From assembly GCF_019884785.1 (NCBI RefSeq), contig NZ_CP082326.1, forward strand, positions 2,349,355-2,413,354: a stretch of DNA of 64,000 nt, read 5' to 3'. The notes beneath the pieces were generated by a model. The model saw only the letters and a program-made list of their open reading frames with translations. It was not told the origin of the DNA and made no database searches. Shown here in pieces: positions 6,273-60,507 of the stretch; position 1 is the first letter of the stretch; every line of letters begins with the position of its first letter. Both the position numbers and the translations under genes were made by a program. This DNA comes from Crassaminicella profunda. GTDB taxonomy: Bacteria > Bacillota > Clostridia > Peptostreptococcales > Thermotaleaceae.

Positions 6273-7319
6273 TCAGTGTCTTTTCTTTACTTCTTGAATT
6301 TTATGAATAACTTTTTCTCCTTCTTCTGAAGTTAAAAAATTATACGTAGACTCAGGAACAAAGGGTTTAATCTTTTCAATATCCCCTTTTGCTATAAAAC
6401 TTCTCACTTTCGATGCACTAATGGTATCACTGTTTATGGATTTTCTTGGAATTTCATTTACACCCATGCCAAATTGAGGTAATATCTCTTTCATTACTTG
6501 ATTGTATTGATTGGTCGTTTCGCAATAAGGTTCTTCCCCAACATATCGTTCATGAATTCCAAGACTCGGTCCAATATAATTTCCAAAAATTCTAAGATCT
6601 AAGGCTGCATGAATTTTAACAATTTCACTTGGCTCTTTTATAAAATAAGAGGGAAATGTAGCATTTGAGATAATATAATCTCCCCCTTCATGGATTGTAA
6701 TATTTTTTATATGCTTTGTTCCTTCCCTCATCAATTCCCTACGAACTTCATAAGGAAAACTAGATAAATCAGAAGATACAATAAAAACATGTACATGTTG
6801 ACTTTCCTCTGCTGCTTTTTCAATTAAATAAAGATGCCCATTGGTAAATGGATTGCCATTCATAACAACACAGCTTATTTTCTCTCCTATTACTTTCTGT
6901 TTTGCTAATCCATCTAAATAAGATTTCATGCCATCATGTTTATTTTCCATTAAAACTACCTTTCCACTTACTTCTTCAATCTTATGAAATCCCATAAATT
7001 GAAAACTCTTTTGAGCAGATGGCTTTGTGTATACAAATAAATGGTTAACCTCTCGCAGATATTGCATATGGACTAATTCATTCATCAATAAATTCAATAC
7101 CCCTGTACCTTGATACTCCTCATCTACAGCTATACATCTTAAAGTGTTTCCTTTAATCGATCCAGCTCCTATTAAATTTTCTCCATCATAAATTCCTACT
7201 GTATCCTCTAATCCAAAATCTAAAGTAAGATGATTTTTTTCCAAAAGATTTAATACTTGGTTCCTTGCTTTTGCTTCATCCATATAGATTTTTTCAATTT
7301 TAAATTTTTCATATAACAT
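6273..7319 (-). CDS. citC: [Citrate (pro-3S)-lyase] ligase CitC
   Basis: Acetylates the thiol of the citrate lyase prosthetic group using acetate and ATP, switching the enzyme on. About 348 residues in two parts. An N-terminal GNAT-like domain (about residues 15-120) contains EEYQGTGVLNLLMNEL. A C-terminal nucleotidyltransferase domain contains the HIGH-type motif VVMNGNPFTNGHLYLIEKA. The second of two close in-frame ATGs (7319) is preferred because AAGGAG lies 8 bases before it. It is the first gene after the promoter, cre-like site and hairpin at 7353-7590, so its product would limit lyase activation. Confidence 0.96.
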   Translation of the reverse strand: MLYEKFKIEKIYMDEAKARNQVLNLLEKNHLTLDFGLEDTVGIYDGENLIGAGSIKGNTLRCIAVDEEYQGTGVLNLLMNELVHMQYLREVNHLFVYTKPSAQKSFQFMGFHKIEEVSGKVVLMENKHDGMKSYLDGLAKQKVIGEKISCVVMNGNPFTNGHLYLIEKAAEESQHVHVFIVSSDLSSFPYEVRRELMREGTKHIKNITIHEGGDYIISNATFPSYFIKEPSEIVKIHAALDLRIFGNYIGPSLGIHERYVGEEPYCETTNQYNQVMKEILPQFGMGVNEIPRKSINSDTISASKVRSFIAKGDIEKIKPFVPESTYNFLTSEEGEKVIHKIQEVKKRH

Positions 7320-7336
7320 ATTCATTTCTCCTTATA

Positions 7337-7397
7337 AGGAACAAAAATCAAAAAAGGTCAATATACAAAACTTAAAAAGTTTTATATATTGACCTTT
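7337..7397 (-). terminator. Long hairpin with T-tract in the citC leader (candidate attenuator)
   Basis: Arms 7353-7365 and 7385-7397 (AAAGGTCAATATA and its complement) pair perfectly. After a C/A mismatch, a second 7-bp stem (7367-7373 with 7377-7383) closes on a 3-nt loop. On the minus strand it is followed by TTTTTTGATTTTTG, so it reads as an intrinsic terminator between the citC promoter and the citC start. Because it lies about 190 bp downstream of that promoter, it would stop the cit-tct transcript unless relieved. What relieves it is not visible. Confidence 0.75.
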
Positions 7398-7536
7398 GAA
7401 AGCATAATCATTCATTATCTTTCGCCTTGTCAAACAATATGATTTAATTGTATTTAAATAATTTCAACCATTTCCAAATTTCTTATCTTATGAATAGTCT
7501 ACTCAATGTATCTATCACAAGCTTAAGACGTTGTCT

Positions 7537-7550
7537 TGGAAACGTTTTCT
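7537..7550 (+). promoter_or_regulatory. cre-like catabolite repression site for the cit operon
   Basis: TGGAAACGTTTTCT with a preceding T matches every defined position of the relaxed cre consensus WTGNAANCGNWNNCW and is nearly palindromic. It lies about 12 bp downstream of the citC -10 box, within or just after the start point, a position where CcpA typically blocks transcription. Adjacent bases 7525-7537 form a small AAGAC/GTCTT inverted repeat of unknown meaning. Confidence 0.65.
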
Positions 7551-7561
7551 TATTTTCTTTT

Positions 7562-7590
7562 ATTATACTACGTATTCTTTTAAAAAACAA
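7562..7590 (-). promoter_or_regulatory. Sigma-A-type promoter of the citCDEFX-tctCBA operon
   Basis: On the minus strand TTGTTT (7585-7590), a 17-bp spacer and TATAAT (7562-7567) lie just after the citG stop. The transcript would carry a leader of about 230 nt containing the hairpin at 7353-7397. Confidence 0.7.
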
Positions 7591-7616
7591 TATTTTTCTA
7601 CAAAAAATTTAACAAA

Positions 7617-8486
7617 TTATAATTGTTCCACCAAAAATAACATAATCGTAATAGCCAATAAATCAGCTGCACCACCAGGACTTACCCAGTTTTCAATACA
7701 CCATTCATCAAGCGCTTCCAGACTTTCCAATCCATCTTCGGAAAAAACGCCACCTTTTTCAAAAACTTTCTTTGCCTTAGCCTGTACTCTTTTTAGCATA
7801 TCTAAATCATGTCTTCCAAGAATATTCGAATCTTCCGTATATATCATCAAACATAATAATACCTGTACAAATCGTTCATTCAATGTTCCCTTTTCAGATT
7901 TCATCAATTCCTTTAGCACTGGAAGTCCATGGGTACAAACCGTTTGAAATCCAGAAGCAACTTCTCCCCTTATACCGGTTATTCCATATTTTACATATAA
8001 TCGTTCCCCATAGGTTAAGGATTCACCAAAAGTTTTTTTCTTTAATTCCTGATCTACTAACCCCTTGGTCATGAACTTTACTTGCTTACAAATATCATCA
8101 GCTGAATAACTGCCACATCTATTCTTTTGATAAAGAAATCCAATCACAGCAGCTATAATTCCTAATGAGAAAATAAGACCTTTATGGGTATTAACACCAT
8201 TTGTTGTAGCAAACATTTTTTCTTCACCCATTTTCCCGATGGGGCGAATCTCTTGAAGTAATCCTTCTATTTCTCCACTATATCCTATTCCTGCTAATGT
8301 ACATTCATAAAAAACTTCTCCTAAAGCTGTACTACTATCAACAAATGTAAAAAAATCCATATCCTTATGGGCACCATTATTTTTCCGATCTACAAGCCCT
8401 GGTTTAGGGGTAGCTGATACTTCATATAAAAGGGCACGTACTGCAATAGCTTCTATTTCTCTTGCAAACTTTTCTTGATTCTTCAT
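7617..8486 (-). CDS. citG: Triphosphoribosyl-dephospho-CoA synthase CitG
   Basis: Makes 2'-(5''-triphosphoribosyl)-3'-dephospho-CoA, the precursor of the citrate lyase prosthetic group, from ATP and dephospho-CoA. CitX then uses it. The start is placed at the ATG at 8486, 7 bases after AGGAG, rather than an upstream in-frame ATG without a site; this gives 289 residues. Family motifs seen: EVSATPKPGLVDRKNNGAHKDMDF near residues 21-44, GVNTHKGLIFSLG, and the C-terminal SPGGAADLLAITIML. It precedes the main cit promoter and may be transcribed separately or read through into citC. Confidence 0.94.
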   Translation of the reverse strand: MKNQEKFAREIEAIAVRALLYEVSATPKPGLVDRKNNGAHKDMDFFTFVDSSTALGEVFYECTLAGIGYSGEIEGLLQEIRPIGKMGEEKMFATTNGVNTHKGLIFSLGIIAAVIGFLYQKNRCGSYSADDICKQVKFMTKGLVDQELKKKTFGESLTYGERLYVKYGITGIRGEVASGFQTVCTHGLPVLKELMKSEKGTLNERFVQVLLCLMIYTEDSNILGRHDLDMLKRVQAKAKKVFEKGGVFSEDGLESLEALDEWCIENWVSPGGAADLLAITIMLFLVEQL

Positions 8487-8586
8487 GTAATCGCTCCTAA
8501 TTTTTATCAACTTTAAAAGATAAATGCCCTTTTATCATATAGGATTATTGGAAATTTTTCAACAATTCAATTTCATATATCAAAAA

Positions 8587-8871
8587 TCAACTTTTATTCT
8601 CTTTATTATAAATTTTATTGCTCCAATACCACATCCACATTCCCCAAAAATACCCTCCTATAGGGAATACGATTACGGATGTAACTAAGTTCAATATAAA
8701 CTTTCTACTTGTAAATGCATCTATATTTAACCCATTATTCAATATAGCCATACTCACTTGAAATAATATAGCTGTTGGAATCCCCCATCCTAATACCCCT
8801 TTTCGCCAAATGAAATATGATTTTCCTTTTTGTCTTGTTCTTTCCCATGCTTCTCTTTTCTTTGAATTCAT
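8587..8871 (-). CDS. Small membrane protein with two predicted helices, unknown function
   Basis: A 94-residue protein with a basic N-terminus (MNSKKREAWERTRQKGK) and two hydrophobic stretches, about residues 28-47 and 58-82, the second rich in glycine and tryptophan (GGYFWGMWMWYW). Similar small proteins occur widely in Firmicutes as uncharacterised membrane proteins, but I do not recognise a named family with confidence. The ribosome site is weak (AGGAGT about 9 bases upstream). It is about 100 bp upstream of citG in the same direction without a visible terminator between them, so partial co-transcription is possible. Confidence 0.6.
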   Translation of the reverse strand: MNSKKREAWERTRQKGKSYFIWRKGVLGWGIPTAILFQVSMAILNNGLNIDAFTSRKFILNLVTSVIVFPIGGYFWGMWMWYWSNKIYNKENKS

Positions 8872-9040
8872 TACTTATACTCCTTTTGATTAGAATCTAT
8901 ATCATTTTTCTGCTCCTATTTCTTGTCTAAAAATTCATGTATATTATATCATTTACACTGCAATTTTTGTATTTTTTATCAATAGATGAAACTGATAAAA
9001 CAATCTTTACCATAAAAAATATTTTATAATCTATTTTAAA
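8872..9040. other. AT-rich intergenic stretch, nothing recognised
   Basis: First part of the 314-bp gap between the small membrane protein gene and the gene at 9186. No coding frame with a ribosome site, no strong hairpin and no promoter pair stands out. The remainder of the gap contains the nfo 3'-end copy at 9041-9079 and the leader of the gene at 9186. Confidence 0.5.
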
Positions 9041-49373: not shown

Positions 49374-50748
49374 ATTAAAAAACAAACTCAATTTATTTCA
49401 TAGTAACAGCATCTCCAAACAATTCTTAATCAATTATAGCTTTTTATTTGTTTTACTTCTTGTAATTATTGGTTTTACTTTTATCGCTAATTACTTATAT
49501 GTAAATTCCATGTATATCACTTCTGAGATTGATATCGAACGTGTTTATAAAAATACATTGGACCACGGAATGAAAAAAGCATTTGAATTAGAATATCTTC
49601 CCGAAAATGCTTATTTAGAATATATAGATGATCATTTAACCGTACTTTCAGCCTATAATAGTTCCCATAAAATAGGTTATACCTATTCGCAAAAACATTA
49701 TAATGAAATGATTTTTGATGATCCTTATGGCTTTATGGTCTATTATCCAGAGCATAAAAATGAATTTTTGTTAATTTATCTTCCTCCTGAAAAAAATTTT
49801 ATCGATATCTTCATATTTACGGGAAGTTTTTTTATCATCAGCTTAATCATTGCAATCATTCTTTATGCAAAGGTAACCTCTATTCAAATTGTACAACCAA
49901 TCAATCACATACTAGCAGGAGTTAAAATTATTAGTGACGGAGATTATTGTAATAAAATCAATTTTGAATCAAAAAATGAATTAGGCGTATTAAGAGATGC
50001 AATTAATCAAATGACAGGCAAAATTCAAGAAGAAATAAGTCTTAGAGAAAAATCTGAATCTAATAGAAAAAGATTAATCTTAGATATATCTCATGACCTA
50101 AAAACACCACTAACCAATATAGCTGGATATGCTCAAACCCTTTCCTCAAGTGATGATTTATCTACTGAGCAAAAGGATAATTATTTAGATATTATTCTCA
50201 CTAATAGTAATCGAGCAAACAACCTTATTCAAGATTTATTTGAATTATCTCAAATGGAAATGGAAGAAAAGATTCTCATGAAAGAAGAGAAAAATTTATG
50301 TGAACTATTGAGAAGAATCTTAATCAGCTATATCCCAGAACTAGAAACAAATCATATGGCATATACCTTTGAAATTCCTGAGTTTCCAATATGGTGCCTT
50401 ATTCATGAGCAAAAAATAGAAAGAGCCATTGGAAATATAATTACAAATAGCATTAAATATAGTGGAAAAAATACCACCCTTTATTTAGAAATGAAGGTTT
50501 CTAAAAATAATGCAATCATTATTATACAAGATACTGGCATTGGCATTACCAAAGAGTTTGTACCCGTTATCTTCGAGCCTTTTGTTCGTGCGGATCTTTC
50601 AAGAAATACTAAATCTGGAGGAACTGGATTGGGACTAGCTATTACTAAAAAAATTATGGAGAAACACGAGGGGCAAATATACTTAGATTCAGATTACAAA
50701 AATGGTTGTAGATTTGTTATTTCTCTTCCACTTAGTAAAACAACTTGA
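49366..50748 (+). CDS. Sensor histidine kinase (HisKA-HATPase)
   Basis: Partner kinase of the preceding regulator, 460 residues. Helices at about 21-44 and 143-167 bracket an extracytoplasmic sensor of about 100 residues without a named fold; a HAMP domain follows (about 168-220). The HisKA box is LDISHDLKTPLTNIAGYAQTL with the phosphorylated histidine near residue 242. The ATP domain has NIITNSIKYSG (N box), IIQDTGIGI (G1), FEPFVRADLSRNTKSGGTGLGLAI (F and G2 boxes). Translationally coupled to the regulator (8-bp overlap). The signal is not known. Confidence 0.95.
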   Translation: MNKLKNKLNLFHSNSISKQFLINYSFLFVLLLVIIGFTFIANYLYVNSMYITSEIDIERVYKNTLDHGMKKAFELEYLPENAYLEYIDDHLTVLSAYNSSHKIGYTYSQKHYNEMIFDDPYGFMVYYPEHKNEFLLIYLPPEKNFIDIFIFTGSFFIISLIIAIILYAKVTSIQIVQPINHILAGVKIISDGDYCNKINFESKNELGVLRDAINQMTGKIQEEISLREKSESNRKRLILDISHDLKTPLTNIAGYAQTLSSSDDLSTEQKDNYLDIILTNSNRANNLIQDLFELSQMEMEEKILMKEEKNLCELLRRILISYIPELETNHMAYTFEIPEFPIWCLIHEQKIERAIGNIITNSIKYSGKNTTLYLEMKVSKNNAIIIIQDTGIGITKEFVPVIFEPFVRADLSRNTKSGGTGLGLAITKKIMEKHEGQIYLDSDYKNGCRFVISLPLSKTT

Positions 50749-50878
50749 TTAAACAAACAACCATCTTGCTATCCATGACCTTAGAGCACATTTTTTAAAA
50801 TATTTTAATAAAATATTTTAAATTTCTATACTGCTCTTTGCCAAATGATGATAAAATAGTATAAAAGGAGGTATACAC

Positions 50879-51469
50879 ATGACAAAATATATTTTATTAG
50901 TAATCGTAGCATATCTAGTTGGAAGCATTCCTTTTTCTTACATTACTGCAAAATTTATAGGAAATATTGATATAAGAAAACATGGCAGTGGAAATTCTGG
51001 TGCTACGAATGTCCTTAGAACACTAGGCCCAAAAGCAGGCGCCATTGCTTTTATACTAGACTTCCTAAAGGGATTTATTCTTGCCCTTATTGGAGAAAAA
51101 TTATTAGGCAGTCAAGGTGGAGCTATTGCTTCTACTTTTGTAGTCATTGGTCACTGTTATCCCTTTTCTCTAGGTTTTAAAGGCGGCAAAGGGGTTGCTA
51201 CTGCTGGTGGAACAATTTTTGCTCTATATCCCCTTATAGGCGTTATATTGTTGATTATCCATTTTTCTATTACAGGACTTACAAGAATGGTTTCTTTAGC
51301 TTCTATTACTGTAGCTGCTTCATTTCCAATTTTGTGTTTTATTTTTAAAGAGCCTATACCCTTTATACTATATGCTTTATGTTTAGGTTCCTTTGTTATT
51401 TACAAACATAAAGCAAATATAAAAAGATTATTGGCTGGAACTGAATCAAAAATACATTTTAAAAAATAA
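50879..51469 (+). CDS. plsY: Glycerol-3-phosphate acyltransferase PlsY
   Basis: Membrane enzyme that acylates glycerol 3-phosphate from acyl-phosphate, the first committed step of phospholipid synthesis. It has 196 residues and about five helices. The three conserved loops are clear: YLVGSIPFSYITAKFIGNIDIRKHGSGNSGATNV (pieces, about residues 11-44), GHCYPFSLGFKGGKGVATAGG (about 97-117) and the C-terminal FVIYKHKANIKRLLAGTESK. The ATG follows AAAAGGAGGTATACAC. It is monocistronic with a strong terminator. Depends on PlsX, which is not in this window. Confidence 0.97.
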   Translation: MTKYILLVIVAYLVGSIPFSYITAKFIGNIDIRKHGSGNSGATNVLRTLGPKAGAIAFILDFLKGFILALIGEKLLGSQGGAIASTFVVIGHCYPFSLGFKGGKGVATAGGTIFALYPLIGVILLIIHFSITGLTRMVSLASITVAASFPILCFIFKEPIPFILYALCLGSFVIYKHKANIKRLLAGTESKIHFKK

Positions 51470-51507
51470 AGAAAATTCTTTGTCCCCTCAAAGAATTTTC
51501 TTTTTTT
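51468..51507. terminator. Bidirectional terminator between plsY and the sigma-54 activator gene
   Basis: GAAAATTCTTTG (51471-51482) pairs with CAAAGAATTTTC (51489-51500), with A-rich and T-rich flanks. It also closes the convergent glycerol operon. Confidence 0.88.
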
Positions 51508-51508
51508 A

Positions 51509-52918
51509 TTAGCTCTCATTTTCTATAATTTTATATTTTCTTGCTTTTGATGCTACCGTCTTATGTGTAATCCCTAATGCGTTTCCTGCTGCATTAAAAC
51601 TTCCAAAAGTGTTTAATGCCATTTTTATTATTTCCTTTTCATATTCTTCTAATGTTGCTAAAGCACCCTTTTTATTCATATTGATTAAGCCAGTAGATTC
51701 TTGATCTCTAGCATACATTTTATAAATATTAGATATATTTCTTGGTATATGTTCAACATCTATAAGAGGCTCATCTGCTAGGGCAATGATTCTTTCCACC
51801 GTGTTTTGAAGTTCTCTTATATTTCCAGGCCATTTATATGCAGCCAAACATGCTTCAGCTTCTTTTGTCAACTTTACAGGATCTACTTCCATATTTTTTG
51901 AAATCTTTTTTATAAAGTATTCAATCAATAAAGGAACATCCATCTTTCTCTCCCTAAGAGGAGGTAAATATATAGGAATTACATTTAATCGATAATATAA
52001 ATCTTCTCGGAATTTCCCCTCATCCATCATGTGTTCTAAATTTTTGTTTGTAGCTGCAATAATTCGAATATCCACATGAATGACTTCATTTCCACCAATT
52101 CTTTCAAATTCTTTCTCTTGTAATATCCTTAGGAGTTTCACTTGCATTTCCATAGGCAAATCTCCTATTTCATCTAAAAATACGGTGCCATGATTGGCTC
52201 TTTCAAATTTTCCAATTTTTCTTTTTAAAGCCCCTGTAAAAGCCCCTTGCTCATGACCAAACAGCTCTGACTCTAATAACTCAGATGGAATAGCGCCACA
52301 GTTTATGGCAACAAAAGGCCCTGCCTCTCTTTGGCTGTTTTCATGAATAGCTTTAGCTACTAACTCTTTTCCCGTTCCACTTTCTCCTCTGATCAAAACC
52401 GTTGATAAAATTTTTGAAGCTTTTTGAGCTCTTAAAAGGGCTTTTTTTATAGAGGGACTATTACCAATAATCTTTCCAAAGGGCTTATCAAGCTCAAAAT
52501 CCCATTGATTAAAAGAAGTAGGAAGTTCCAATATATTGGTTTTCTCGTCTTTTGTATCATCTTTTCTATAGATAGCAATAACTCCTTTAAACTGATTCCC
52601 TTCATACAATGGAGAAACAGATCCTTCAATTTCCATTGATCCTTTACAAAGACGGATTTTCCCTTTTAAATTTTTCTTTTTACGAAAGGCATTTAAAATA
52701 AGTTCATCATTTTTAGTTGCAAAAATACTTTTTCCTTCCTGCAAAAATCCATTTACATGAAATATTTTTTCATAAGCCCTATTCATATATTCTATATTTC
52801 CAAACTCATTAATAATGCACACACCATCTACAAAATAATCAAATAAATGAGAATAACTGATATCCTCTTTTTTTACACTTTTTCTTTGATTAACAGAAGA
52901 AAAATTTGCTATTCTCAC
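51509..52918 (-). CDS. Sigma-54-dependent transcriptional activator (PAS-AAA+-Fis)
   Basis: Enhancer-binding protein of about 469 residues. Order: PAS sensor (about 20-120; FDYFVDGVCIINEFGNIEYMN), AAA+ domain (about 150-385) with Walker A RGESGTGKELVAKAIHE, the sigma-54 contact loop ELFGHEQGAFTGALKRK, Walker B GTVFLDEIGDLP and sensor LRERKMDVPLL, and a Fis-type HTH at the C-terminus (FNAAGNALGITHKTVASKARKY). The GTG at 52918 sits six bases after GGGGGG; a GTG at 52948 overlaps the preceding stop and is the alternative. Its place at the end of the glycerol operon, whose upstream region has a -24/-12 promoter and paired palindromes, suggests that it controls that operon. Confidence 0.92.
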   Translation of the reverse strand: MRIANFSSVNQRKSVKKEDISYSHLFDYFVDGVCIINEFGNIEYMNRAYEKIFHVNGFLQEGKSIFATKNDELILNAFRKKKNLKGKIRLCKGSMEIEGSVSPLYEGNQFKGVIAIYRKDDTKDEKTNILELPTSFNQWDFELDKPFGKIIGNSPSIKKALLRAQKASKILSTVLIRGESGTGKELVAKAIHENSQREAGPFVAINCGAIPSELLESELFGHEQGAFTGALKRKIGKFERANHGTVFLDEIGDLPMEMQVKLLRILQEKEFERIGGNEVIHVDIRIIAATNKNLEHMMDEGKFREDLYYRLNVIPIYLPPLRERKMDVPLLIEYFIKKISKNMEVDPVKLTKEAEACLAAYKWPGNIRELQNTVERIIALADEPLIDVEHIPRNISNIYKMYARDQESTGLINMNKKGALATLEEYEKEIIKMALNTFGSFNAAGNALGITHKTVASKARKYKIIENES

Positions 52919-52944
52919 TTGCATCCCCCCATATCCATATTTTT

Positions 52945-53310
52945 TCACTGTATTTTTTCCATGGTTTTTGTGGCAACTACATCTATACCTGTTCCTAATA
53001 TATTATGAATAATCACATCACCTATTTTAACTGGTGCTTCCACTTCAACACCATTGATGATTTCCATACATTTAAAAATCAGTTCTTTGGGAACAGGTTT
53101 ATTTGTTTTTACTGAAAGCCTTTTTAAAAATCCATTTTTTATTTTTACAGTAGTAGGAATCACTCGAGTAGGATTTGTCATCTCCTTTACCCCATAAGCT
53201 TCTCCTCTTTTGCAGGTATTTCCTGTAACCTTATAACCATCTTCCTCTTTACTTACGGTAAGTCTGCAGCCCATTGGACAAACAATACAAATAATTTCTT
53301 TTTTATCCAT
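52945..53310 (-). CDS. DUF1667 family protein of the glycerol oxidation operon
   Basis: A 121-residue protein with CIVCPMGCRL near the N-terminus and a further cysteine in GNTCKRGEAYG, the cysteine set of DUF1667, a family that regularly accompanies GlpA-like and NAD(P)/FAD oxidoreductases in clostridia. It may bind a metal or Fe-S centre and serve as the third component of the dehydrogenase. The ATG at 53310 follows the oxidoreductase stop at once, with AGGTGA as ribosome site. Function is inferred from context only. Confidence 0.85.
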   Translation of the reverse strand: MDKKEIICIVCPMGCRLTVSKEEDGYKVTGNTCKRGEAYGVKEMTNPTRVIPTTVKIKNGFLKRLSVKTNKPVPKELIFKCMEIINGVEVEAPVKIGDVIIHNILGTGIDVVATKTMEKIQ

Positions 53311-53311
53311 C

Positions 53312-54577
53312 CTATTCACCTGCCTTTACAACATCCACAGATATTTCCCTAATATTTTTCTCTTTAAATAACCTTGAAGGTATGCTTATTCTTTCCATTT
53401 CTCCTGGTGCCATATGTCTTTTATTCATTTCTTTTATTATCTTTCCATCCCCTTTAACGATCAATTTACCGTTTCTATAAACATCCTTCACCCTCATGAG
53501 TAAGTCCAATGTATTTTCAATATTAGATGGTCTGATAACTTGGGGAACGATATAAGCAATCCCATTTCCTGCAAGCGTTTTCACGGTGTCTACAGAATCT
53601 TTTAATTGATTCTTTATAAACTTGGCTGCACTTTTTCCTGCTTTCTGACTTTCTTTTGTAACCCAATCTACAAGATCATGTACATGAACAACATTCCCGC
53701 ATGCAAAAATACCTTTTACAGTGGTCTCCATAGATTCATTAACCATTGGTCCACCTGTTACAGGAGCTAACTTCACATGAGCACTCTTTGATAATTCATT
53801 TTCTGGAATCAATCCTACTGACAAAAGTAATGTGTCACAAGTATATTCTTTTTCTGTTCCTGAAATTATTTTTTTCTTATGATCTACCTCAGCAATCACA
53901 ACAGCTTCTACTCTATCCTTTCCCTTGATCTGTGTAACTGTATGATTAAGGAGAAGTGGAATATTATAATCATCTAAGCATTGTACAATATTTCTTGTAA
54001 GCCCACTTGAAAATGGCATTAATTCAGCTACAGCTAACACTTTAGCACCTTCTAATGTAAGTCTTCTTGCCATGATAAGACCTATATCTCCTGATCCTAA
54101 TATGACTACTTTCTTTCCTACCATATATCCTTCCATATTTATATATCTTTGAGCGGTCCCTGCAGTAAATACTCCAGCAGGTCTTGTTCCTGGTATAGCA
54201 ATTGCCCCTCTCGTTCTTTCTCTGCATCCCATAGCCAAAATAATTGCTTTTGCTTTTATTTTCATAAATCCGTCCTTTGTATTCATAACACTTAATTCTC
54301 TATTTTCATCAATATCTAATACCATTGTGTCTAACTTATATTCTATGTCCATCTCCTTTAATTCATTAATGAAACGATCTGCATATTCAGGGCCTGTTAA
54401 TTCTTCTTTAAAGACATGGAGGCCAAACCCATTATGAATACATTGCTGCAAAATTCCTCCCAATTCTCGATCTCTGTCAACTACCAAAATATTTTTTACC
54501 CCATTTTTCTTAGCTTCTATAGCTGCAGCAAGACCTGCAGGACCACCGCCAATCACAACAATATCATAGTTTAACAT
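53312..54577 (-). CDS. FAD/NAD(P)-dependent oxidoreductase of the glycerol operon
   Basis: A 421-residue pyridine nucleotide-disulfide type oxidoreductase. The FAD site is DIVVIGGGPAGLAAAIEAKKNG at the N-terminus, the second nucleotide site KKVVILGSGDIGLIMARRL near residue 165, and GIFACGNVVHVHDLVDWV closes the FAD domain. IILAMGCRERTRGA is also typical of the group. The ATG at 54577 is chosen, because GGAGGTGATTAT precedes it; it overlaps the glpA-like stop only slightly upstream. With the GlpA-like protein and DUF1667 it probably forms a glycerol-3-phosphate oxidising complex that passes electrons on to NAD(P) or a ferredoxin. Confidence 0.88.
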   Translation of the reverse strand: MLNYDIVVIGGGPAGLAAAIEAKKNGVKNILVVDRDRELGGILQQCIHNGFGLHVFKEELTGPEYADRFINELKEMDIEYKLDTMVLDIDENRELSVMNTKDGFMKIKAKAIILAMGCRERTRGAIAIPGTRPAGVFTAGTAQRYINMEGYMVGKKVVILGSGDIGLIMARRLTLEGAKVLAVAELMPFSSGLTRNIVQCLDDYNIPLLLNHTVTQIKGKDRVEAVVIAEVDHKKKIISGTEKEYTCDTLLLSVGLIPENELSKSAHVKLAPVTGGPMVNESMETTVKGIFACGNVVHVHDLVDWVTKESQKAGKSAAKFIKNQLKDSVDTVKTLAGNGIAYIVPQVIRPSNIENTLDLLMRVKDVYRNGKLIVKGDGKIIKEMNKRHMAPGEMERISIPSRLFKEKNIREISVDVVKAGE

Positions 54578-54581
54578 ATAA

Positions 54582-56078
54582 TCACCTCCTACTTTCTTCA
54601 TCACGAGAAGACGCCACTAAATCTTTTGCTTTCTCATATTCACTGGTTTCTTTTGTATAACCTGTAAGCATATATGAATTCGTTCCTTCTTTTACAATAT
54701 CTTTCATATCTTTTCCTAATTCTCTAGCTAAAATTTCAATTACTCTCGGTCCACAAAATCCCCCTTGACATCTTCCAGCTCCTGGCCTTGCTCTTCTTTT
54801 AACACCATTTACCGTTCTAGCTCCAGCATTTCTATTAATGACATCTACAATTTCTCCTTCAGTGATTTTTTCACATCTACAAATAATTCTTCCGTATCTC
54901 GGATCTTTTTTGATTATTTCTATCTTTTCGTCATCACTTAATTCAGCAAATCGAATTTTTTTTCTTCTCTTTGGATTAAAATCTTTTCTTTCTTCAAGAT
55001 CTCCTACCATATTTTTTACTAATTCAACTACATAGCTTGCAATAGCTGGTGAAGAAGAAAGTCCTGGAGATTTTATACCTGCAACATTAATAAATCCTTT
55101 TACCTCTTTAGATTCTTCAATAATGAAATCTCCTGTACTCGGTTCAGCTCTTAAACCTGCAAAAGTAGTTATATTATTCTTTAATGCTATTTTACTGCAA
55201 CTTTTCATTACCCTTTCTTTTATAAATGAAAGACCTTCTCTTGTAGTTTCTCTAGCTTCCTTATCATCTAAATCCTGTGCATCAGGTCCAATGATAATAT
55301 TTCCATCAACAGTAGGACTCATTAATACTCCCTTTCCTAGTTTTGTAGGACATTGAAAAATCGTTCTTTTAACAAGACCGCCTTCACTTTTATCTAATAA
55401 ATAATATTGTCCTCTTCTAGGTGTAATCTTAAAATGACTATCTGCTACCATATTATAAATATCATCTGAATAAAGCCCTGCACAGTTTATTACATATTTT
55501 GTATCTATTTCATTTTCATTTGTATAAATTCTATATCCACCTTCATTTTTTTCTATTCTTTTTACCTTATTGTTTAAAAGCAATTCTGCTCCATTATCTA
55601 ATGCATTTTCTGCTAATGCTATTGCTAACTCAAAGGGTCCTATAATTCCTGCTGTAGGTGCATACAAAGCTCCTACAATATGATCATTTAAATTAGGCTC
55701 CATTTCTTTTACTTTTTTTGCATCAATGATCTCCATATTGGGTACCCCTATTTTTACTCCATTTTCATAAAGATCTTGAATCGTCTTTAAATCTTCCTCA
55801 TTAAAAGCAACTACTAATGATCCAATCCTTTTAAAAGGTACATCAAGTTCTTCACATACCTTGTCAAACATAGCATTTCCTAAAACATTGAATTTTGCTT
55901 TATTACTTCCTGCCTTTGCATCATATCCTGCATGTACAATTGCGCTATTTGCCTTTGTTGTACCATTTGCCACATCATTATCCTTTTCTAAGATAACAAT
56001 CCGTAATTTATATCTAGATAGTTCCCTTGCAATAAAAGTACCTACTACACCAGCCCCTATGACGGCTACATCATACAT
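54582..56078 (-). CDS. glpA: GlpA-like FAD-dependent glycerol-3-phosphate dehydrogenase with [2Fe-2S] domain
   Basis: A 498-residue flavoprotein of the DAO superfamily, predicted to oxidise glycerol 3-phosphate to dihydroxyacetone phosphate. The FAD site is DVAVIGAGVVGTFIARELSRY at residues 3-23. The BFD-like [2Fe-2S] domain near residues 395-450 has CRCEKITEGEIVDVI and RPGAGRCQGGFCGPRVIEIL, supplying four cysteines as in GlpA. Related L-2-hydroxyglutarate oxidases share the fold but lack that domain. The adjacent glycerol kinase supports the substrate. The ATG follows TAGGAGGGATATAA. Confidence 0.88.
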   Translation of the reverse strand: MYDVAVIGAGVVGTFIARELSRYKLRIVILEKDNDVANGTTKANSAIVHAGYDAKAGSNKAKFNVLGNAMFDKVCEELDVPFKRIGSLVVAFNEEDLKTIQDLYENGVKIGVPNMEIIDAKKVKEMEPNLNDHIVGALYAPTAGIIGPFELAIALAENALDNGAELLLNNKVKRIEKNEGGYRIYTNENEIDTKYVINCAGLYSDDIYNMVADSHFKITPRRGQYYLLDKSEGGLVKRTIFQCPTKLGKGVLMSPTVDGNIIIGPDAQDLDDKEARETTREGLSFIKERVMKSCSKIALKNNITTFAGLRAEPSTGDFIIEESKEVKGFINVAGIKSPGLSSSPAIASYVVELVKNMVGDLEERKDFNPKRRKKIRFAELSDDEKIEIIKKDPRYGRIICRCEKITEGEIVDVINRNAGARTVNGVKRRARPGAGRCQGGFCGPRVIEILARELGKDMKDIVKEGTNSYMLTGYTKETSEYEKAKDLVASSRDEESRR

Positions 56079-56105
56079 TTATATCCCTCCTAAAGCCATA
56101 TATGA

Positions 56106-56153
56106 AAAACCGTACGAAACTAACCTACGTTCCCATAGGTTAAATTCGTACGG
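56106..56153 (-). terminator. Long two-part hairpin between glpK and glpA
   Basis: Outer arms CCGTACGAA (56110-56118) and TTCGTACGG (56145-56153), a 2x2 internal loop, then a 7-to-9-bp inner stem capped on the minus strand by a GGAA tetraloop. The minus strand continues TTTTTC. It reads as an intrinsic terminator or attenuator after glpK. The GAGCCGTACG ... CGTACGG outer stem and GNAA loop also recall domain V of group II introns. Confidence 0.7.
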
Positions 56154-56231
56154 CTCTCCAAGTCTCCGGCCTTCAATATAAAGTTCTCTTACTATACTAT
56201 ATGCATGACTTTTAAAAATGTTCCTTTTATT

Positions 56232-57791
<1,560 letters not shown>

Positions 57792-57855
57792 TTATGTAAA
57801 ACCTTCTATACCAAAAATATGAAATATGCTATAAAGAATGATTCCTATTTTTAAA

Positions 57856-57879
57856 CTCTAGGGCTTAAAAGCCCTAGAG
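57856..57879 (-). terminator. Hairpin between the transporter genes and glpK
   Basis: CTCTAGGGCTT (57856-57866) pairs with AAGCCCTAGAG (57869-57879) on a minimal loop. On the minus strand TTTAAAAATAGG follows. It may reduce read-through from the transporter genes to glpK, or protect the upstream mRNA. Confidence 0.65.
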
Positions 57880-57886
57880 ATTAAAT

Positions 57887-58219
57887 TTAAAGACATGAGA
57901 GTATAAATCCACCTATTGTTCCTCCAATAATTGCGAAAACTCCGTTTGTTAATCCTTTTCCAACGTGATCCCCTGCTGCTGCAGATGCTACAAACAATCC
58001 AAATGCTCCTGCCCAAGCCTGATCTATCCAGGCAGTTCCTGATTGGAAAATAAACCCTACCCCATGGGTTAAGCTCCATGTAGTCCCAACAACAAATGCT
58101 GCAAACATCCATCCTGCTATAGAACCCCACTCGTCAACCATTTTCCCTACACATAATCGAAGTAAGAAAGGAAAAATGAATGCTCCTGCAAAAGTTGTTA
58201 CCATATGAGGAAATGTCAT
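57887..58219 (-). CDS. Small membrane protein, putative glycerol transporter subunit B (Lin0368-like)
   Basis: A 110-residue hydrophobic protein with about three or four helices. The start is ATG 58219 behind AAAGGAGGTAAATAT. GTAWIDQAWAGAFGLFVASAAAGDHVGKGL and the GGTIGGFIL end parallel GAWIDMALGIGVCGTMRDVF and VGAIVGGL in its upstream neighbour, so the two are paralogues. I recall proteins of this kind annotated as 'Lin0368 family putative glycerol transporter subunit' beside glpK. No GlpF-type aquaglyceroporin gene is here, so the pair is a good candidate for glycerol entry. Evidence is family memory and context. Confidence 0.65.
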   Translation of the reverse strand: MTFPHMVTTFAGAFIFPFLLRLCVGKMVDEWGSIAGWMFAAFVVGTTWSLTHGVGFIFQSGTAWIDQAWAGAFGLFVASAAAGDHVGKGLTNGVFAIIGGTIGGFILSCL

Positions 58220-58245
58220 ATATTTACCTCCTTTCAAATACTTTT

Positions 58246-58617
58246 TTATGCTGCTGATTCTTCTTTCTCTTTTTTCTCAGCTAAATACACTTCTATTTTG
58301 TAAGCTGTCAAACCACCAACGATTGCTCCAACAATCACAACGCCTAATGTTGGTAATGAAGAAATACCTGCATCCACACCATGTCTAAATACATCTCTCA
58401 TGGTTCCACATACACCAATTCCAAGGGCCATATCTATCCATGCCCCATCATTGTTATGAACACCTAGAAAATGATTCAAGAACCACATAATTCCAATAAT
58501 AGCCAATCCTGCAAACCATCCACCAGCTATTCCATATGCATCTGAAAATGCTCCCCAAACACTCATAACAAACATCCCTGCGATAGCAGTTCCACAAATT
58601 GTACCTATATGTTTCAT
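58246..58617 (-). CDS. Small membrane protein, putative glycerol transporter subunit A (Lin0368-like)
   Basis: A 123-residue protein with about three hydrophobic segments (residues 3-20, 31-52 and 88-108) and a charged C-terminus (EVYLAEKKEKEESAA). It shares GxAGGWFAGxAxxGxxWxLxH-like and G-AWID motifs with the following gene, indicating an ancient duplication. As the first gene of the operon it lies directly behind the -24/-12 promoter, with AAGGAGGTGAAAG as ribosome site. Likely half of a two-part glycerol channel or transporter. No experimental support is visible in sequence. Confidence 0.65.
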   Translation of the reverse strand: MKHIGTICGTAIAGMFVMSVWGAFSDAYGIAGGWFAGLAIIGIMWFLNHFLGVHNNDGAWIDMALGIGVCGTMRDVFRHGVDAGISSLPTLGVVIVGAIVGGLTAYKIEVYLAEKKEKEESAA

Positions 58618-58662
58618 TCTTTCACCTCCTTTTTTTTATTTAACTTCTCATTATCTTATATA

Positions 58663-58678
58663 AGCAAATATCATGCCA
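58663..58678 (-). promoter_or_regulatory. Sigma-54 (-24/-12) promoter of the glycerol operon
   Basis: On the minus strand TGGCAT (58673-58678), five bases, TTGCT (58663-58667): GG and GC with exactly ten bases between, matching TGGCAY-N5-TTGCW. It is about 45 bp upstream of the first glycerol gene. Confidence 0.8.
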
Positions 58679-58729
58679 AATGCATTTTTCTTAATTTTCT
58701 TGAAATTTCACAGATCACCCTACTCCTAT

Positions 58730-58746
58730 TTGGTATTTTTTACCAA
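58730..58746. promoter_or_regulatory. Palindromic upstream activator site 1 of the glycerol operon
   Basis: TTGGTATTTTTTACCAA is a perfect palindrome of 6-bp arms and 5-bp spacer, centred about 86 bp upstream of the predicted sigma-54 start point. It is the likely binding site of the activator encoded at 51509-52918. Confidence 0.65.
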
Positions 58747-58770
58747 CGTCATTGTTTTTTGAAATCCGAA

Positions 58771-58787
58771 TTGGTAAAAAATATCAA
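58771..58787. promoter_or_regulatory. Palindromic upstream activator site 2 of the glycerol operon
   Basis: TTGGTAAAAAATATCAA repeats site 1 with one mismatch in the arms. Centre-to-centre distance is 41 bp, close to four helical turns, as expected for cooperative enhancer sites. The remaining gap up to 59013 shows no further element. Confidence 0.6.
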
Positions 58788-59013
58788 GTCTTACCCATAC
58801 CCTATTTCTTCTTTACTTATACAAATTTTCATATTCATCACCCCACCTGGATGAATATAATATTATGTATATTTAATCAAAATGCCATCTCTAAAAAAAC
58901 TTCTATGAAATTCATAGTTTATATTAATAATTCTATGGCAATATTCTATTTCCTTCCTTTTTATGTATATTTTTACCATTGTCTTTTTATTAATGAATTT
59001 TTTAAAATTTTCA

Positions 59014-59048
59014 TAAAAAAAACTTTCCTCATCATAATAAGGAAAGTT
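59014..59048 (-). terminator. Terminator of the DUF362 gene
   Basis: AACTTTCCT (59021-59029) pairs with AGGAAAGTT (59040-59048). The minus strand continues with T8. Confidence 0.88.
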
Positions 59049-59063
59049 AAAACTTTATCAGAT

Positions 59064-60212
59064 CTATAACTTAGCCAATAATTTCATAAGCAATGGTCGA
59101 TGAATCTCAACAGCTTGTACTGGACATAATTCCTGACAGCAAAAACATCGTATACATTCGTCTAAATTTACTATAGGTTTTTTATTGACCATTTCTATCA
59201 CACGGGGTGGACAATTTTTTGCACAATCACTACAGCCTATACATTTATCATGGATAAATACTGGTTTTGGTTGCAGTAGTCCATTTAAAATATCTCTTAA
59301 AAACTTAGGAATTTTCCCTTCTAATAAATCCAAGCTTCTTATTTCAGGGACAATAAAATCATTCAATATAAAATTCTTTATATCATCACCTTTTAGTTCT
59401 ATATCTTCAAAATTACCTTTGCATAATTCTCTCTCTACGCACCTTTCAATAGTTGGTACTTTAGTAGGTTCTATTCCAACAATCGTTGTGGCTGCTACAT
59501 CTAAATGATATGGACTAGTAGACCCAATCACAACCCCTATGTCTCTGGGATCTCCTCCACTAGGGCCTGCCCCTTCCATTCCAACTATACCATCCATAAA
59601 TGATAAAATAGGCTTAGAAACTAAACAAATATCTACTAAAGCATTTGAAAAATCAATATTATTTGGCATACGCACATGATATTCTGCTTTTTCTAGTCCT
59701 GCAACAATTCCAAACATATTTTTTACTGCTCCAGTAAACAACATCATTCCATGGGTTTTTAACTTAGATACAGATATAACTTTATCTACTTCTTTTAATA
59801 CTTCAATAGCTGTTATTTTTTTTAAGATTAATCCATCATTATTGCTAATTTCTACTGAATTCGTATTATAATTTAATACGACTGGCAAATCTTTTGCAAA
59901 TTCCTCATAACCGCAAACCTTGTAAATTCCTTTTAATATTTTAGCGTTAAATGGCCCCCCTGGACTATCTCCTATAATTACTTTTGCACCATATTCTATT
60001 AACTCTTCTGCTAAAGCTTTAACAAAATTGGGATGTGTCGTAGTAGCTTCTTCAGGTCTTTTTTTCATAAGTAAATTTACTTTTAGAAGAACAGATTCCC
60101 CTTTGCTTATATATTTTTCAATACCTCCCAAATTGTCAAAGGTTTTTTTAATACATGCTCTTACTTTGTTGTATTCATAATCTTTACATTCTATTAAAGA
60201 AACAATCTCCAT
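59064..60212 (-). CDS. DUF362 protein with two 4Fe-4S clusters
   Basis: A 382-residue cytoplasmic protein. The N-terminal DUF362 domain (about 1-300) shows VLLKVNLLMKKRPEEATTTHP, VIIGDSPGGPF, VSKLKTHGMMLFTGAVKNMFG and MDGIVGMEGAGPSGGDPRDIGV. The C-terminal ferredoxin domain has CIGCSDCAKNCP and CIRCFCCQELCP, two complete 4Fe-4S motifs. The family is widespread in anaerobes and its reaction is not established; electron transfer is likely. It stands alone with its own terminator, upstream of and in the same direction as the glycerol operon. Confidence 0.9.
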   Translation of the reverse strand: MEIVSLIECKDYEYNKVRACIKKTFDNLGGIEKYISKGESVLLKVNLLMKKRPEEATTTHPNFVKALAEELIEYGAKVIIGDSPGGPFNAKILKGIYKVCGYEEFAKDLPVVLNYNTNSVEISNNDGLILKKITAIEVLKEVDKVISVSKLKTHGMMLFTGAVKNMFGIVAGLEKAEYHVRMPNNIDFSNALVDICLVSKPILSFMDGIVGMEGAGPSGGDPRDIGVVIGSTSPYHLDVAATTIVGIEPTKVPTIERCVERELCKGNFEDIELKGDDIKNFILNDFIVPEIRSLDLLEGKIPKFLRDILNGLLQPKPVFIHDKCIGCSDCAKNCPPRVIEMVNKKPIVNLDECIRCFCCQELCPVQAVEIHRPLLMKLLAKL

Positions 60213-60342
60213 TTTCTACCTCCACCTAAATATGATTATTCATCCATACAACTTCTAATCAGCTATGGTTATATTGATTATATCAAGAATTTATCAATTT
60301 ACAAGACTCCCACTTCTATAAGTAGGAAATTAAAATTTTCTC

Positions 60343-60372
60343 CTTCAGGTGGAGTAGCGTCTCCACCTGAAG
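60343..60372. repeat. Perfect 12-bp inverted repeat in a hairpin-rich gap
   Basis: CTTCAGGTGGAG (60343-60354) and CTCCACCTGAAG (60361-60372) around TAGCGT. The flank has CTCCCACTTCTATAAGTAGG just upstream. The style resembles subterminal hairpins of IS200/IS605-type elements or their non-coding relatives, but no transposase gene is present. The T-tract is poor. Confidence 0.55.
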
Positions 60373-60507
60373 TTTCTATGTTTTGCTTTAAGGAAACAAG
60401 TTCACTCTAAGGAATAGGTTTCTTTTTTGTATAAAAAAGGATTTATTGTATATATATAGAATATACACAATATAGAATATTTAGACTTTTGAGAATGGAG
60501 TGATAAA

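Follow-up and report, generated by a model that had tools for sequence, protein, structure and literature searches.

A predicted sigma-54 glycerol operon with its own activator and an internal GlpP-type RNA element in Crassaminicella profunda

We analysed a 64-kb stretch of the Crassaminicella profunda genome (64,000 nucleotides of contig NZ_CP082326.1, hereafter the window) and identified on its minus strand a glycerol operon of the order DUF6905a-DUF6905b-glpK-glpA-FADox-DUF1667-activator. Judged from its sequence, this operon is very probably a sigma-54 transcription unit that encodes its own activator and contains a GlpP-type gate. Glycerol use in Firmicutes is described in terms of GlpP antitermination and CcpA. 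The predicted control elements are as follows.

58663..58678, minus strand: sigma-54 promoter TGGCAT-N5-TTGCT, sequence TGGCATGATATTTGCT; exact match, kept in relatives
58730..58746, minus strand: proximal putative activator site TTGGTAAAAAATACCAA; centre at about -85, position and spacing conserved
58771..58787, minus strand: distal putative activator site TTGATATTTTTTACCAA; centre at about -126, position and spacing conserved
56104..56175, minus strand: RNA element of terminator/antiterminator type in the glpK-glpA gap, probably a target of GlpP

The promoter TGGCATGATATTTGCT lies at 58678..58663 with zero mismatches and exact spacing between its -24 GG and -12 GC elements, as claimed in a preliminary description of this DNA, and places the predicted transcription start at about 58653. 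Pattern searches of the whole 4.59-Mb genome (one contig) returned 40 exact TGGCAY-N5-TTGCW sites, whereas the reversed pattern, used as a control, occurred once; an exact match in this genome is therefore seldom due to chance. The rpoN gene, whose presence the preliminary description had left to be checked, was found, together with 34 genome matches to the activator protein, itself included. Both TTGGTA-N5-TA(C/T)CAA palindromes reported earlier are present upstream of the promoter, reading in the window as TTGGTATTTTTTACCAA (58730-58746) and TTGGTAAAAAATATCAA (58771-58787). Their centres lie 61 and 102 bp upstream of the -24 GG; the 41-bp separation is as first described, while the positions become -85 and -126 from +1 in place of -86 and -127. 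The exact pair arose in 0 of 300 dinucleotide shuffles, and the mismatch sum was 0 here versus 7 to 11 at the other 39 exact sigma-54 sites, leaving the glycerol operon promoter as the only one of the 40 with paired sites. Across the genome TTGGTA-N5-TAYCAA occurs in three places, the two promoter sites and position 270115; the last was rejected as a regulatory site and attributed to chance, being inside coding sequence with no exact sigma-54 site adjoining.

To examine relatives we searched 16 genomes of the family, 394 of the order and about 85,000 species genomes with DUF6905, so that the choice of loci rested on the first gene and was independent of both activator and promoter. Complete glpK operons with the activator as their last gene number 16 (the window, L066, L074, L077, L079-L084, L086, L087, L089, L090, L092 and L117), and each has an exact sigma-54 promoter ahead of its first gene, which is DUF6905a for the window, L066 and L083 and glpP for the others. 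Five further loci cut by contig ends, with the activator out of view, also carry the exact promoter (L075, L076, L078, L119 and L120). By contrast, scans of up to 2.6 kb of upstream sequence that tolerated one mismatch detected no such promoter in any of 19 operons lacking the activator (the sequence covered was just 1.6 kb upstream for L088, and just about 0.5 kb beyond DUF1667 for L096). The operons with activator and promoter come from families including Thermotaleaceae, Natronincolaceae, Caminicellaceae, Thermohalobacteraceae, Fusibacteraceae and Tepidanaerobacteraceae.

The paired sites follow the same distribution. In the glp promoters the two sites are separated by 41-42 bp; counted from the GG they lie at -102/-61, or at -92/-51 in the Tepidanaerobacter group. 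Pairs occupy fixed positions in nearly all 16 activator-ending operons, most commonly as an inverted pair of TTGATACTTTTTACCAA. When only the motif of the window was used, the pairs went unmatched by 300 of 300 shuffles in 17 of 21 promoters; operons without the activator resembled their own shuffles, L106 excepted. Promoter and paired sites are thus kept in orthologous operons with the activator and missing from those without it, which agrees with what the earlier proposal had predicted for orthologs. On the GlpK tree (INDEPENDENCE) the activator label changes about six times, on at least three occasions along well-supported branches, and the promoter follows the activator in every independent pair. 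The case draws its weight from the exactness of the promoter and of the geometry. In Alkaliphilus (L080, L086) one half-site has shifted to CTGTTC/TTGTTC instead of TTGATA with the spacing unchanged; a search for matching changes in the helix-turn-helix (HTH) domain of the activator singled out one residue, which was not convincing.

The genes of the operon and its flanking terminators are listed here.

58246..58617, minus strand: DUF6905a, first gene, small membrane protein (Pfam PF21846, E 6.8e-34)
57887..58237, minus strand: DUF6905b, small membrane protein (Pfam PF21846, E 5.7e-28)
56232..57776, minus strand: glpK, glycerol kinase (TIGR01311, 775.9 bits against a cut-off of 590)
54582..56078, minus strand: GlpA-like FAD-dependent glycerol-3-phosphate oxidoreductase with a BFD [2Fe-2S] domain (DAO, Fer2_BFD)
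53312..54604, minus strand: FADox, NAD/FAD pyridine nucleotide-disulphide oxidoreductase (Pyr_redox_2, E 5e-37)
52945..53319, minus strand: DUF1667 protein (Pfam PF07892, E 3e-36)
51509..52948, minus strand: PAS-AAA+-HTH sigma-54 activator, last gene (Sigma54_activat E 1e-74, HTH_50)
51468..51503, minus strand: terminator 3' of the activator gene
59021..59048, minus strand: terminator that ends the DUF362 gene upstream and insulates the operon

With terminators at both ends (59048-59021 and 51503-51468), the genes from DUF6905a to the activator look like a single transcription unit of about 58653-51468. The top NCBIfam match of the GlpA-like protein is type 2 glycerol-3-phosphate oxidase, at a score under the cut-off of that model. 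The last gene had been described as a PAS-AAA+-Fis activator. It does encode a sigma-54 activator, whose AAA+ domain has Walker A and B motifs and an intact GAFTGA motif, joined to a DNA-binding HTH; this HTH matches HTH_50, not the Fis-type HTH_8, and the PAS domain scores just under the Pfam cut-off. Among the activators of relatives the Walker motifs, GAFTGA and HTH are conserved, whereas the PAS part at the N-terminus shows no such conservation (12-41% identity). The glp activators form a single 99% tree group with activators linked to dhaK, a group separate from those further activators of this genome that entered the tree. Assignment of the protein to PrdR, its top NCBIfam match, was rejected at 422.9 bits against the NF041552 cut-off of 795, as was DhaR (NF008485, 246 bits against 551).

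A second layer of control is suggested by the RNA element between glpK and glpA. In B. subtilis GlpP antitermination controls glpFK, glpD and glpT, acting on leaders that contain a binding site and a terminator (PMC9604022). Read along the operon strand (56175-56104), the element consists of GGC-cgGAGActtGGAGA-GCC and then a strong terminator, in which the same GCC strand is used again. Copies precede glpF, glpT and additional glpA genes of the same genome, with L043 and L044 (described below) among the loci that carry the element; in many relatives (many of L066-L120) it stands immediately ahead of glpA, ahead of glpP, or in the gap from glpP to DUF6905a. Over 27 elements the stem covaries (GGC/GCC, AGC/GCT, GTGGT/ACCAC, GGACTT/AAGTCC). 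Rfam gave no match at 50000-60500 of the window. This genome has two glpP genes, and in many relatives glpP heads the operon. The place of the element in glp leaders makes it a probable target of GlpP. The loop of the element is conserved as GAGA-N2-4-GGAGA. Two further glp loci lie at 4063000-4092000 of the same genome (L043, L044), with glpP, glpF, glpK, a glpT-like gene and glpA.

We propose that the activator made from the last gene would bind the -85 and -126 sites, which are separated by some four turns of the helix, and, at the cost of ATP, open the sigma-54 polymerase at the -24/-12 element. As the activator is encoded inside its target operon, the operon would feed back on the activator. 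The signal is perhaps glycerol or a three-carbon (C3) metabolite sensed by the PAS domain. At the terminator/antiterminator a further gate would follow, which GlpP together with glycerol-3-phosphate probably opens. If GlpP does act there, the DUF6905 pair and glpK would be under sigma-54 alone and be made upon activation, and the genes for glycerol-3-phosphate oxidation and for the activator would also need glycerol-3-phosphate for full expression. The proposal of sigma-54 control by a self-encoded activator thus gains from the co-occurrence of promoter and activator in relatives and from the presence of rpoN, with the amendment that GlpP control appears to be added to and not replaced.

Several observations weigh against this reading and bear on its rivals. 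The sites are weak in L074, L076, L080 and L117 (the near-identical operons L074 and L117 each have a good site and a degenerate one), and only three of the label changes on the GlpK tree are firmly independent, so that a sign test is not significant and cannot reach 0.05. A sigma-70-like sequence matching at 10 of 12 positions (TTGGCA-18-GATAAT, 58679-58650) overlaps the promoter, and the genome holds the two other glp loci with glpP, so that the main route for glycerol may lie outside the window operon. The overlapping sequence, together with the GlpP-type RNA element, would allow a sigma-A promoter to drive the operon, with the palindromes binding a repressor and GlpP antitermination as the main control. 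However, sigma-70-like matches occur here at chance level (8 versus 5.4 in shuffles), and relatives keep the exact -24/-12 element, which is gone where the activator is gone; we consider this explanation improbable.

It is similarly improbable, if by a hair less so, that the promoter is real and driven by another activator of the genome, the terminal activator serving a different promoter. The roughly 33 other genome matches to the activator would supply candidates, but promoter and paired sites come and go with the terminal activator gene across families and the paired sites stand at no other sigma-54 promoter of the genome. That promoter and palindromes are chance resemblances is scarcely credible: palindromes with two mismatches are indeed at chance level in the window (22 versus 21.5), yet the exact pair is missing from all 300 shuffles, exact sigma-54 sites exceed the control 40 to 1, and the same layout recurs in 20 further promoters, a conservation across families that contradicts chance. 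Sigma-54 initiation with the operon's own activator accordingly remains the reading we favour.

Nie et al. (2019, PMC6615313) surveyed the sigma-54 regulons of Clostridiales, Geosporobacter and Alkaliphilus included, and distinguished 39 activator groups; glp genes appear in none of these as given in the main text, the nearest being DhaQ-dhaKLM. Like the glp operon, DhaQ-dhaKLM pairs a one-component sigma-54 activator with a C3 pathway, and dhaK-linked activators adjoining DUF6905 pairs share the 99% tree group of the glp activators. In contrast to it, the glp operon has glpK and glpA and no dhaK, so that the two are related by tree only; the glp sites are TTGATA-N5-TACCAA where the dhaK-linked promoters have GGGGAAAAATTCCCC-type repeats; and the glp activator is without an N-terminal HPr domain. 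At 6958-8994, L095 encodes a dhaK-linked activator whose N-terminal domain is HPr-like and which also has two PAS domains. Sigma-54 promoters with GGGGAAAAATTCCCC-type repeats were seen in L095, where the promoter adjoins this activator, and in L097. PrdR and DhaR are sigma-54-type activators similar in architecture to the glp activator, which falls far short of both curated cut-offs.

The B. subtilis GlpP system resembles the present one in having a terminator element before glp genes, with glpP in the genome and often first in the operon in relatives; it differs in that the window operon has one element within it, in the gap between glpK and glpA, and initiation predicted to depend on sigma-54. 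In C. beijerinckii a sigma-54 mutation left growth on glycerol unaffected (PMC6510779). In the open-access literature, supplementary tables aside, we found no prior report of sigma-54 control of glpK, and an activator regulon for glp genes combined with an internal GlpP-type gate appears to be new. A sigma-54 initiation step with a self-encoded activator and an internal gate would add ATP-dependent, potentially very tight control of glycerol use in an arrangement that spans at least six families of anaerobes, and the contrast between 16 of 16 and 0 of 19 operons provides a named set of species for direct tests.

The first genes, earlier taken for a transporter, encode two DUF6905 proteins (Pfam PF21846), which are not a known transporter. 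The DUF6905 pair also stands before dhaK-dhaL-tpi-rpiB (L095), near dhaK (L094), and beside arsR, arsD, arsA, ArsP-type permease and low-molecular-weight phosphatase genes (L100, L029). L026 is likewise among the loci with the pair beside glpK, dhaK or arsenic genes. Neighbours of these kinds are typical of aquaglyceroporins, arsenite also passing through GlpF-type channels, which makes a facilitator role for DUF6905 a reasonable guess. MIP channels are absent from 18 of the 20 DUF6905 genomes tested, and within the family of the window each genome with glpK has either MIP or DUF6905. An AlphaFold model of DUF6905a (predicted local distance difference test, pLDDT, 80.6; predicted template modelling score, pTM, 0.55) had no significant PDB match. 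Given the occurrence of the pair by glpK, dhaK and ars genes and the 18 of 20 genomes without a MIP channel, a fuller reading joins the two-gate circuit (sigma-54 with the self-encoded activator, then GlpP-type antitermination) to a DUF6905 pair that it controls and that would replace GlpF as a facilitator for glycerol, dihydroxyacetone and arsenite; we hold this combination tentatively, at slightly below an even chance. The pair is in any case a testable candidate for a new route of glycerol entry.

Certain features of these loci lie outside the proposed circuit. Between DUF6905b and glpK a 10-pair hairpin (57856-57879), with no clear T run on the operon strand, is perhaps a processing or attenuation site. 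Palindromes resembling cre, around AAACGTTT, are absent before the window operon and occur between glpP and DUF6905a in L028, L030, L034 and L035, about 50 bp before DUF6905a, and likewise in L033, L046, L051 and L059. In the operon of Alkaliphilus peptidifermentans (L049, L086), a gene that resembles a chemoreceptor fused to a substrate-binding domain is inserted between glpP and DUF6905a.
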